Made by a program: the position numbers and the translations under genes
NCBI RefSeq assembly: GCF_001854865.1
Contig: NZ_MDDW01000030.1
Coordinates: 73,585 to 87,165 of the forward strand
Source: Rhizobium sp. LCM 4573
Lineage (GTDB): Bacteria > Pseudomonadota > Alphaproteobacteria > Rhizobiales > Rhizobiaceae
DNA length: 13,581 nt
Reading direction: 5' to 3'
In this document: positions 1 to 4,097 of the stretch, piece by piece
How the letters are laid out: every line of letters starts with the position of its first letter
Numbering within the stretch: position 1 is the stretch's first letter
The notes under the pieces: model-generated
What the model saw: the letters and a program-made list of their open reading frames with translations, nothing else
What the model was told of the DNA's origin: nothing
Database searches by the model: none

Positions 1-1072
1 GGCCGCTTGCGGTGCGGATGACCTGGGCGCGGGCGCGCATCCAGACGTAATGACCGGCGGCGTGGCGCATGCGGAAGACCTGATCGACCTGCTTGGCGTT
101 TCCGCGGCTGATGGCGCGGGCAAGTGCATAGAGATTGCCATCGGTCGGATGCATCATGCGCGCCGCGTCGGAAAACGAGATCACGTTGCCGGCGGGCGGC
201 AGGCCGAGCATCTCGTACATCGAGCTGGACCAGAAGAGGCGCCGGTTGGCGACATCGAAATCCCACAGGCCGCAGCGGCCGCGCGACAGCGCGGTCTCGA
301 TGCGCATGTTCGTCTCGACGAATATGTCGTCGGCGTCGCGGGCCCGCTTCACCTGCATGTAGTAGGCGTAGAGGATGACCAGCAGGATTGCCGAGATGCC
401 GGTGAAGAGCGTGACGTTGAGCGAAACCTCATGGCGCCAGAGCCGGTTTATCGTCTCGATCGAATGGGCAGCGACGATCAGCGCGCCCTCATTTCCGATG
501 GGCTCGATCGCCGCATAGAAGGGCGTGGCGCCGAAAGAGGTCTCGAATACGCCGAACTGGCGAGGTGTCGTGGTTTCGGGCAGCAGGGAGGCGAGAGGCA
601 TGCCGGCATAGCCGCTGGCAGCCGCCGAGCCGCCGAATATCCGGCCCGCTTCATTGACGAAAAGCACGAAGGCACCGTCTTCCATGCGGTCCTGCGGCAG
701 GAAGGCTGCAAAACGCTGCTCCGCCGCCGTGCGGTCGCCATTCTGGACGAGGCTTTCCATGCCGGAAAAGGCTGCGGTGCCGGTCGCGGCCATCAGCGCC
801 GTGGTACGCTGCGCCGTCTGATGCATGCGGTCATGTTCCGCGACGATGCCGAGAATGCGGGAGGCGGCGACGACTGCGAGGAAGGCGAGGATGAGAAGCG
901 GGATGGAGCGTTTCAGAACCAGCTCCACCCGTGGCTCCTGCCGGGAGATAGGCCTGACGGAAAGTTTTGCACCTTCGGGAAGCGCCTGCCGCAGCCGCGC
1001 AAAGCCCGGAAATTTGAGACGCAAACGCCCCTCGGCCGCGGTTGCCCGCCGCACGTCCGCCATCGTATTCAT
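1..1072 (-). CDS. PAS-domain membrane sensor histidine kinase, N-terminal part (PdhS/CbrA-like), cut by window edge
   Basis: This is a 357-residue open N-terminal fragment that runs off the left edge. Visible order: a cytoplasmic N-terminus; a first membrane segment at about residues 56-75 (LVLKRSIPLLILAFLAVV); an extracytoplasmic region at about 76-217; a second membrane segment at about 218-238; then a PAS fold from about 258 (GLWDFDVANRRLFWSSSMYE, then FRMRHAAGHYVWMRARAQV). The layout and PAS sequence resemble rhizobial PdhS-family kinases such as CbrA, which signal to DivK and on to CtrA in the cell cycle. The kinase core (H box, ATPase) lies outside the window, so histidine kinase identity and the CbrA name are inferences. 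The ATG at 1072 is chosen because GAGG stands 6 nt upstream; an in-frame ATG at 1063 is less well placed. The gene is transcribed away from the GANTC-rich region at 1073-1221. Confidence 0.75.
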   Translation of the reverse strand, partial: MNTMADVRRATAAEGRLRLKFPGFARLRQALPEGAKLSVRPISRQEPRVELVLKRSIPLLILAFLAVVAASRILGIVAEHDRMHQTAQRTTALMAATGTAAFSGMESLVQNGDRTAAEQRFAAFLPQDRMEDGAFVLFVNEAGRIFGGSAAASGYAGMPLASLLPETTTPRQFGVFETSFGATPFYAAIEPIGNEGALIVAAHSIETINRLWRHEVSLNVTLFTGISAILLVILYAYYMQVKRARDADDIFVETNMRIETALSRGRCGLWDFDVANRRLFWSSSMYEMLGLPPAGNVISFSDAARMMHPTDGNLYALARAISRGNAKQVDQVFRMRHAAGHYVWMRARAQVIRTASG

Positions 1073-1221
1073 GTTGTCCCTCGTGGTGATTCGCGCGCCG
1101 CTCGCCCGAATCTACCCTAATGAATCATTAGTGATTCGCGCTGTCCAGAGGGTCGGTAAGATTTTTTTAACCAATTGAATCGAAAGCGAATCTGCAGGAA
1201 TCGAGTCGGCGCCTTTCGCTT
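1073..1221 (-). promoter_or_regulatory. Upstream region of the sensor kinase with a cluster of eight GANTC (CcrM) sites
   Basis: This 149-bp gap between the MFS gene stop and the kinase start must contain the kinase promoter. It carries GANTC at 1088, 1108, 1122, 1133, 1177, 1188, 1198 and 1203 (first base of each). GANTC is the target of the alphaproteobacterial cell-cycle methyltransferase CcrM. It also holds an 11-bp direct repeat (GTGATTCGCGC at 1086-1096 and 1131-1141), a 6-bp inverted repeat with a 4-base loop (GAATCA/TGATTC, 1122-1137), and an AT-rich stretch around 1161-1176 containing TTAACCA, similar to a CtrA half-site. No convincing -35/-10 pair could be fixed by eye. Confidence 0.55.
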
Positions 1222-2545: not shown

Positions 2546-3109
2546 ATGGCAAGAGAGATGCTGCGTCAGGGAGGCAGGAGCGCCCGCATCCAGGCGGAGG
2601 TGCACCGCACCGTCCAGGATCTCCTGAAAACCATGGACCGCAGCGAGATCACCGTTCCGATGATCGCGGAAAGGGCAGGGGTGACACCCTCGACGATCTA
2701 TCGCCGCTGGGGCGATCTTTCCGAGCTCCTCGCGGATGTCGCGGTTGCCCGGATGCGGCCGATCGCCGATCCGGACGATACCGGAGCGCTGGCTTCGGAT
2801 ATGGAAGCCTTCGTCGTTCAATATGCCGAGGAAATGTCGTCGCGGGTCGGCCGCGCCATGCTGGTCGATGTCGTCGGCAGCGTGCAGAGCGGAGCCGCCG
2901 CGCAATGCTGCCAATATACCTACCACCATCTGGAAACGCTGAGGGAGCGCGCAGTCGCGCGCGGCGAGACGCCCTTCGATGTCGAGGAGGCCATCGACCG
3001 GGTTATGGCTCCGATCGTCTATCACATCCTCTTCGGAGATCGCGAACTCTCGCCGGATTATTGCCGGACATTGGTTCGGGGTTTCTTCGCGGTTAGTGTC
3101 TATGAATGA
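2546..3109 (+). CDS. TetR/AcrR-family transcriptional repressor
   Basis: This 187-residue protein has the usual length and layout of a TetR regulator. An N-terminal helix-turn-helix lies at about residues 36-57 (VPMIAERAGVTPSTIYRRWG), where the STIYRRWG recognition-helix end is diagnostic, followed by an all-helical ligand-binding/dimer domain. The ATG at 2546 has a GGAG Shine-Dalgarno about 8 nt upstream. It probably represses the divergent MFS gene and itself through the two 23-bp palindromes between them, with release by a small molecule that the transporter exports. The ligand is unknown. A strong inverted repeat at 3141-3181 follows the stop. Confidence 0.92.
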   Translation: MAREMLRQGGRSARIQAEVHRTVQDLLKTMDRSEITVPMIAERAGVTPSTIYRRWGDLSELLADVAVARMRPIADPDDTGALASDMEAFVVQYAEEMSSRVGRAMLVDVVGSVQSGAAAQCCQYTYHHLETLRERAVARGETPFDVEEAIDRVMAPIVYHILFGDRELSPDYCRTLVRGFFAVSVYE

Positions 3110-3205: not shown

Positions 3206-3966
3206 CTATTGAACGGTATAGCCGCCATCTACAGGCAAGGCATGCCCGACGATGAAGCTCGCGGCATCGCTGCAAAGCCACAGGACGGCGTCGGCGATTT
3301 TTTCCGCTCTGCCGAGCTGCCCATGGGCACGACTTGCATCAGTGCATCCATCGCTTCCGGTTGGGTTTCAAGCATTCCCGTCACCATCGGCGTCTCGATG
3401 ATGCCTGGGCAGATGGCGTTGATCCGAATTCCCCTGGCGGCATATTCAAGCCCGGCGCTTTTGGTCAAGCCGACCACTCCATGCTTCGAGGCATGATAAA
3501 TCCCGCGTTCTGCAATCCCGACCAATCCACCAAGCGATGAGTTGTTCACGATTGCGCCCGAACCCTGCTTGCGCATCTGCAGCAGCTCATACTTCATGCA
3601 GTTCCACACGCCCCGCAGATTGACCCCCATGACGAAGTCGTAATCCTTGGGATCTGCGTCGGCGGTCTCGGCGACGGGGCTTTGGACCCCCGCATTGTTG
3701 AAAGCGGCGTCAAGACGACCGAATTCCGCGACCGTCTTTTCCACCATGGCGGCAACCTGCTCCATGTCGGCGACGTCACATTGAATGGCGATGGCCCGGT
3801 GTCCCGAAGAAGTCAGGGAGTCAGCCGCGGCGCGAACCGCGCTCTCGCTGACATCGGCAAGTGCGACCGCTGCGCCAGCCTCCGCAAAGGCCTTCGCCAC
3901 CGCAAGCCCCATGCCGGAAGCAGCGCCGGTGACGAGAGCGACTTTGTTTTCAAAGGAGATGTTCAT
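3206..3966 (-). pseudogene. Short-chain dehydrogenase/reductase (SDR) with C-terminal frameshift
   Basis: A classical SDR Rossmann enzyme that probably oxidises or reduces an alcohol/carbonyl with NAD(P). TGAASGMG (about residues 13-20) binds the cofactor and NNAG is at 90-93. The catalytic Ser is in NNSS (about 143-144), and Tyr157/Lys161 are in YHASK. The CPG motif is at 186-188. After VVPMG (about 213-217) the frame is lost near position 3319, and the open frame ends out of family at 3229. In the neighbouring frame the expected SDR tail follows at once (LGRAEKIADAVLWLCSD, then PVDGGYTVQ) and ends at TAG 3206-3208. One missing base, for example a C in GGGCAGCTC, explains it; the restored protein would be about 253 aa. 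It may be a real mutation or a sequencing error. Start ATG 3966 is preferred over GTG 3975. It lies downstream of the hydrolase on the same strand and may share its LysR control. Confidence 0.8.
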
Positions 3967-4097
3967 AGCACTCACTCGTTGTTCTGATGGAAGTTGATGC
4001 CGTCCGAGGATTTGGTCGGAGGGTGTTCGCCATCTTCGGCCGGTCGGACCATTCCCGTCCCATTCGTGGCGATACAGTCTCGGCTAACAGTCGCCGG

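Follow-up and report, generated by a model that had tools for sequence, protein, structure and literature searches.

The window analyzed here, a 13,581-base stretch of the Rhizobium sp. LCM 4573 genome, begins within a sensor kinase gene on the minus strand, the ATG of which is at position 1072. Upstream of this ATG lies an intergenic region with eight copies of GANTC, starting at 1088, 1108, 1122, 1133, 1177, 1188, 1198, and 1203, all within 120 bp. The gene on the other side of the cluster, an MFS gene, is also on the minus strand and has its 3′ end at 1222; the cluster is therefore not the MFS promoter. The features discussed below are the following, all on the minus strand.

1..1072, minus strand: 5′ part of the probable pleC ortholog (777 aa; whole gene at G000:C30:72326-74656, the remainder being beyond the window)
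1073..1221, minus strand: 149-bp intergenic region upstream of pleC, containing all eight GANTC
1077..1082, minus strand: Shine-Dalgarno-like GAGGGA before the pleC ATG, read directly from the sequence
1088..1092, minus strand: site 4, GAATC, the site nearest the ATG and 3′ arm of the predicted leader hairpin
1088..1112, minus strand: predicted leader hairpin GAUUCG...CGAAUC, formed by sites 3 and 4 where the pleC mRNA is predicted to begin
1108..1112, minus strand: core site 3, GATTC, which doubles as the 5′ hairpin arm and coincides with the predicted transcription start
1118..1123, minus strand: predicted −10 hexamer TCATTA, placed by its 17–18 bp spacing to the −35-like box; overlaps site 2
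1122..1126, minus strand: core site 2, GATTC, kept more widely than any other site; the predicted −10 hexamer would start with its TC
1133..1137, minus strand: core site 1, GAATC, 4 bp past the −35-like box
1142..1147, minus strand: −35-like hexamer TGGACA (T[GA]GACA in most orthologs), a putative −35 element
1156..1170, minus strand: CtrA-type box TTAA-N7-TTAC, one mismatch from TTAA-N7-TTAA, upstream of the −35-like box
1177..1207, minus strand: four distal GANTC (1177, 1188, 1198, and 1203), their number being kept only in part of the genus

The genes farther along were recorded in passing. The MFS transporter gene (1222-2433) and a TetR-type regulator gene (2546-3109), both recognized with Pfam, are divergent, a layout typical of an efflux system and its repressor. 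A dehydrogenase-like ORF at 3229-3975 (minus strand) seemed by eye to have a C-terminus that is out of frame; it ends RKKSPTPSCGFAAMPRASSSGMPCL and has a frameshift-like appearance.

Kinase identity and density of GANTC

The kinase has 777 amino acids (about 85 kDa), with two TM-like stretches, two PAS folds (PAS_3 and PAS_7), and HisKA and HATPase domains. An earlier note on this DNA had described it as PdhS/CbrA-like, and that identification was wrong: PdhS1 of A. tumefaciens and CbrA of S. meliloti are reported to exceed 100 kDa and to have no transmembrane domain (PMC3577659), and the LCM 4573 genome has a separate PdhS-type gene at G000:C29:45474, which scored 690 bits over profile positions 547-1041 when a 756-aa part of it was scanned. 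The kinase itself scored 188 bits against the NCBIfam PdhS model NF041593, for which the cut-off is 2000, and matched it in the kinase core only. Its size, its two TM-like stretches, and the separate gene rule out CbrA/PdhS. For the 120 relatives listed of 3373, the sources used general names (PAS-domain sensor kinase, ATP-binding protein) or the name PleC. A further kinase of this group, with 601 aa and a score of 207 bits against the DivJ model (cut-off 1000), lies about 60 kb from the gene and is perhaps DivJ; the distance resembles that in A. tumefaciens, where divJ (Atu0921) and pleC (Atu0982) are 61 tags apart (PMC3577659). Because of the domain architecture, the names of the relatives, the separate PdhS-type gene, and the neighboring kinase, we call the gene pleC. 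PleC is the most likely identity, judged by sequence orthology and architecture. The broader claim of the earlier note, that a kinase of the DivK/CtrA pathway has a GANTC-dense promoter, was right.

The eight GANTC are exactly at the positions that had been given for them, and the cluster is confirmed as an observation. The window contains 18 GANTC in total, eight of them in the cluster, as compared to a mean of 79 in dinucleotide shuffles; GANTC is therefore scarce in the window overall and packed in the cluster. The background was determined from a sample of 39 stretches of the same genome (744,966 bases, about 13.5% of 5.52 Mb), which contained 998 GANTC, or 1.34 per kb. Besides the pleC cluster with its eight sites, the densest 120-bp stretches of this sample held three GANTC, at 11 places. 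Counts as high as that at pleC are thus not common in the 13.5% of the genome sampled. When the 149-bp intergenic region was shuffled 20,000 times, the maximum was six GANTC. The region upstream of gcrA in the same genome, which is outside the sample, has five GANTC in 120 bp; dense clusters are therefore rare, but not unique. Genome background, shuffles, and the conservation described below rule out chance clustering. A single explanation for all eight sites was also considered and was dropped, since the sites split into a core of three, a hairpin arm, and four distal sites.

Conservation of the core promoter in related genomes

PleC orthologs were sought in overlapping draws of genomes and were found in 57 of 57 from the genus, 60 of 61 from the family, and 62 of 81 from the order. 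Upstream DNA was taken for the LCM 4573 gene, 56 genus members, 59 family members, and 50 of 59 further order genomes, giving 166 regions; one family genome (G043) lacked usable upstream DNA and was dropped, leaving 165. Alignment of the core to the pattern T[GA]GACA-N4-GANTC-N5/6-GANTC-N9/10-GANTC, to which three of the eight sites belong, was scored with a register test, which requires a −35-like T[GA]GAC[AG] followed by at least two of the three GANTC in register. The test was passed by 158 of the 165 regions (LCM 4573, 1/1; genus, 56/56; family, 57/58; order, 44/50) and failed by seven. All three core sites were present in LCM 4573, in 35 genus members, in 38 family members, and in 20 from the rest of the order. 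Losses of single sites differed with the group: site 3 was missing in 21/56 of the genus, site 2 in 8/58 of the family, and site 1 in 24/50 of the order members, a further three of which kept site 2 alone. None of the 165 stretches passed when read on the reverse strand, and 10 of 3300 local shuffles did. In 689,932 bases of the LCM 4573 genome (both strands of 345 kb) only this locus passed. A set of named loci, which overlaps the unnamed set and of which 80 of the 144 found were kept, passed in all 80 cases; Rhizobium johnstonii 3841 and one A. tumefaciens strain passed without an exact site 3.

The spacing within the core suggests how it might function as a promoter. Of 101 cores with an exact site 1, 99 have it 4 bp past T[GA]GACA, the predicted −35 element; the site 1–2 spacing is 10, 11, or 12 in 100 of the 101 cores counted; and the distance from the box to site 2 is 14–16 bp among the 127 cores counted. 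With this last distance, site 2 would abut the −10 hexamer and site 3 would be at the transcription start; the −35, −10, and +1 assignments are all predictions from the sequence.

A sequence model was built from 46 cores with all three sites. The core of LCM 4573 is one of the 46, and its match to the model is therefore by construction. No second copy of the core was found in this genome up to an E-value of 5, with 150 of the 1089 first-look candidates scored, and the idea of a wider regulon with the pleC-type core was rejected, the model having found no second place. A class draw was used to look beyond the order; of its 114 other genomes, at least one of which (G156) is itself in the order, three had a match to the kinase at E≤1e-90. 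Of these three matches, only one, a related kinase gene outside the order (L282, in G203), has, by eye, a TGGACA box and two GANTC in register.

The earlier note had let its reading depend on conservation of the sites in close relatives, and the core sites were found to be kept well beyond the family. For the eight sites together the expectation was borne out only in part: conservation is deep for the three core sites, site 4 is better accounted for as a hairpin arm, and the four distal sites are partially kept. Judged by sequence conservation, the GANTC-tiled core upstream of pleC is real and deeply conserved.

Base counts were made for the 161 regions in which the box was accompanied by one or more sites. 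The number with an exact GANTC was 131 for site 1, 153 for site 2, and 128 for site 3. Among sites with one mismatch at most, the center base of site 1 was A in 100, T in 29, G in six, and C in two (n = 137), with G, A, T, and C of the motif kept in 136, 134, 135, and 137; at site 2 the center was T in 142, A in 12, and C in one, and the G, A, and T were fixed in 155/155. At sites 1 and 2 the center base thus varies most and GA-TC is kept, as would be expected of CcrM sites and not of a fixed operator. The center of site 3 is nearly fixed, with T in 137 of 144.

These counts bear on the possibility that the GANTC were not selected for methylation but are by-products, whether of the promoter sequence or of a site for another factor, such as MucR or a palindrome-binding regulator. 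Genus and family members that keep both sites 1 and 2 mostly have them as the inverted repeat GAATC-N6-GATTC; the near-fixed center of site 3 would also be in keeping with such an origin, and MucR is reported to be able to keep GANTC in target promoters unmethylated (PMC5172544). However, 40 of 57 family members have GAATC at site 1 and 13 have GATTC, and among order members outside the family, 14 of 20 exact sites 1 are GATTC, which makes direct repeats of sites 1 and 2. The spacing between these sites (10, 11, or 12) and the center base of site 1 (all four bases) also vary. Because orientation, spacing, and center base vary beyond the tolerance expected of it, a reader of the palindrome is unlikely, and so is a single palindromic operator at sites 1–2, given the change of orientation outside the family. 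We regard a by-product origin of the sites as improbable.

The flanking bases are in keeping with GcrA. With its flanks, site 1 of LCM 4573 reads TGATTCG on the other strand, which is the GcrA-type extended motif (YGAKTCK/TGATTCG; PMC7987155). YGAKTCK was present at 21% of 990 background GANTC and at 110 of 131 exact sites 1 (genus, 53/56; family, 48/54; order, only 8/20). At exact site 3 it was present in 77 of 129, none of them in the genus (0/35; family, 34/49; order, 43/44), and at site 2 it was at the background level (29/153). The GcrA-type motif thus does not stay at one place, which counts against a GcrA reading: genus and family members have it at site 1, whereas other members of the order, along with some of the family, have it at site 3.

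Leader hairpin, distal sites, and CtrA-type box

Sites 3 and 4 can pair in the predicted leader of the pleC mRNA, and these two sites might be conserved as RNA hairpin arms that control stability or translation, rather than for methylation. Among unselected leaders, 33 of 56 in the genus and 36 of 57 in the family paired at all seven positions with a loop of 8–16, as compared to about 1% of shuffles, and the fold of the LCM 4573 leader was −15.3 kcal/mol (z −3.0). Covariation was examined in 85 of 114 genus and family leaders: five in which fewer than five pairs were possible (G085, G083, G131, G079, and G026) and 19 duplicates were dropped to give 90, and another five (G094, G002, G039, G005, and G056) were left out for poor pairing or being out of register, a choice that favors the hairpin. 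In these chosen leaders, 93.6% of cells paired versus 90.3% in column shuffles, and 13 cells were changed on both sides versus 3.4; neither value was reached in any of 500 shuffles. The numbers of pairs with double changes (two) and of pair types (eight) were not above the shuffles, and sliding the hairpin by +1 column gave 14 double-changed cells, as many as the 13 in register. In 33 of the 85 leaders, G replaces the first A of site 4, with loss of the GANTC and pairing kept as U-G. Because GANTC is often lost there and pairing is kept, the site nearest the ATG can be explained without methylation, and site 4 is better explained as a hairpin arm.

As an account of site 3 as well, the hairpin fares poorly: in the rest of the order only four of 47 leaders pair at all seven positions, yet site 3 is an exact GANTC in 43 of the 47. 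Sites 1 and 2 are outside the hairpin, which could therefore explain only part of the tiling, and conservation of both sites 3 and 4 for RNA structure in place of methylation seems very unlikely. No Rfam match to the leader was found, and a known RNA family was rejected on that ground. The loop of the hairpin in the genus and family is often GC-rich, with the sequence GTGCGGCG or GCGAGCGGCG.

Within the distal 90 bp, two or more GANTC were counted for 28 of 56 genus members and 11 of 57 family members, as compared to 30 of 3673 background windows. By this count, the four distal sites are partly shared in half of the genus, and their conservation is weaker than that of the core.

The CtrA-type box, TTAA-N7-TTAA with one mismatch at most, was found upstream in 47/56 of the genus, 22/57 of the family, and 16/47 of the order, versus about 4% of shuffles, and it mostly starts 23–24 bp before the −35-like box (63/86). 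CtrA is reported to bind the pleC promoter in S. meliloti (PMC4433202) and B. abortus (PMC2877005), and in S. meliloti a CtrA motif is described upstream of the mapped pleC start; the predicted box agrees with this published binding. No significant change in pleC upon CtrA depletion is reported for S. meliloti (PMC4433202).

Possible control of pleC and comparison with known promoters

The most likely reading of these results is that pleC has a methylation-read promoter of the GcrA/CcrM kind with CtrA input. Both proteins appear to be available: the genome encodes GcrA (PF07750 at G000:C2:119876) and a RAMA-domain protein in a 394-aa frame (G000:C29:250726), which was taken, from this domain, as the putative CcrM. 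Unexpectedly, the control genome of Sulfolobus acidocaldarius also gave a score above the cut-off of the GcrA family model.

In this proposal the cluster would regulate pleC, which encodes the DivK phosphatase/kinase PleC, and the conserved −35-like box, T[GA]GACA, would belong to a core promoter of the housekeeping type. The three GANTC in fixed register would occupy the −35/−10 spacer, the upstream edge of the −10 hexamer, and the predicted transcription start. Late in the cycle CcrM would methylate the core sites, and passage of the replication fork would leave them hemi-methylated; GcrA bound to RNA polymerase would read TGATTCG and drive transcription of pleC as the locus is replicated. 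CtrA would act from the upstream TTAA-N7-TTAA box, and the site nearest the ATG would serve mainly as an arm of the 5′ leader hairpin. We infer the methylation of the sites, the action of GcrA, and the timing and sign of its effect at pleC; the full account of the core, with GcrA, CcrM, and CtrA, is in our estimate evenly poised between right and wrong. DNA replication itself may help to time production of the kinase, as is suggested by a GANTC layout that most of the relatives examined share.

The promoter of gcrA offers another model. In A. tumefaciens, six GANTC fall within 250 bp there, and methylation lowers the activity of the promoter, even in E. coli (PMC11514494). The pleC gene might be controlled in the same direct way, without GcrA, if full methylation at the −10 and −35 elements lowered sigma-factor binding and hemi-methylation upon passage of the fork relieved this. 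The presence of several GANTC, a trait of methylation-repressed promoters of the gcrA type, is shared by pleC, and site 2, exact in 153 of the 161 regions, would overlap the predicted −10 hexamer. GANTC arrays also lie upstream of gcrA in the family genomes read. In LCM 4573 (L281:1277-1352) the sites are at −185, −175, −166, and −153 from the ATG, with others at −224 and −40. When gcrA loci were taken from 30 of the 41 genomes with a match, LCM 4573 and the 29 other family genomes (L307-L335) all had GANTC arrays, with two to six per 120 bp; by eye, about 11 of these 30 loci share the 10-9-13 spacing of LCM 4573 and about 13 have the spacing 18-13. However, only 24 of 96 gcrA array sites were YGAKTCK, which is no enrichment over the 21% background, in contrast to site 1 of pleC (110/131) and to site 3 outside the family (43/44). 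Because of this difference in enrichment, the two promoters look to be differently read. In addition, the main text of the study of CcrM depletion in A. tumefaciens does not mention pleC (PMC11514494), a point against the GcrA/CcrM reading as well. Direct control of pleC by methylation is thus possible, but we think it doubtful.

The reading with GcrA as the driver at pleC can be extended to both genes. On this broader view, pleC and gcrA of the Hyphomicrobiales would have phased GANTC arrays that function as multi-site replication timers, GcrA-driven at pleC and methylation-blocked at gcrA; as a whole we consider it unlikely. If it is true, several sites per core promoter would give a sharp response to the switch from full methylation to hemi-methylation, and passage of the fork through the locus would set the moment at which the DivK phosphatase PleC is made.

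Symbiotic differentiation of some of these bacteria depends on the PleC-DivK-CtrA pathway. Control of genes by GANTC methylation is poorly defined in rhizobia and their relatives, and a pleC promoter with sites kept in register in most of the genomes examined from the order would be a concrete target tying replication to the PleC-DivK-CtrA polarity switch. No paper describing a tiled pleC promoter was found in the open-licence PMC literature, as judged mostly from listings and passages. Brilli (2010) counted GANTC upstream of cell-cycle genes and, in the passages on these counts, drew no conclusion on methylation control (PMC2877005), and the promoters of cell-cycle-regulated genes of E. meliloti are reported not to be GANTC-enriched relative to the genome (PMC8725594).

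Among known systems, the pleC promoters of S. meliloti and B. abortus are close in gene and CtrA input: CtrA binding or a CtrA motif is reported for them, and the LCM 4573 promoter has the motif, as read from its sequence. The tiling seen here is not mentioned in the passages that describe those two promoters. The gcrA promoter of A. tumefaciens resembles that of pleC in LCM 4573 in having multiple GANTC, in belonging to a cell-cycle gene, and in coming from the same family; the gcrA arrays differ from the pleC core in their spacing and in having no enrichment of YGAKTCK, and methylation makes A. tumefaciens gcrA less active. Two published results speak against the GcrA/CcrM reading: only six of 75 candidate direct targets found by CcrM depletion in A. 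tumefaciens are reported to be shared with Caulobacter or Brevundimonas (PMC11514494), and the GcrA targets of B. subvibrioides are described as having no preference for the extended motif (PMC7987155).

The GcrA/CcrM promoters of Caulobacter (podJ, mipZ, pleC, and ctrA P1) are like pleC of LCM 4573 in having GANTC within the promoter of a polarity or cell-cycle gene. C. crescentus pleC is listed among 80 loci that need CcrM for efficient GcrA binding (PMC3667746), and the GANTC is at −24 in podJ P2 and at −28/−29 in ctrA P1 (PMC4287350, PMC3667746). Of the 96 Caulobacter cell-cycle start sites reported to bear GANTC, 11 have more than one (PMC4287350). The Caulobacter promoters thus usually have a single site, whereas pleC of LCM 4573 has three core GANTC in a fixed register that is kept across the Hyphomicrobiales.
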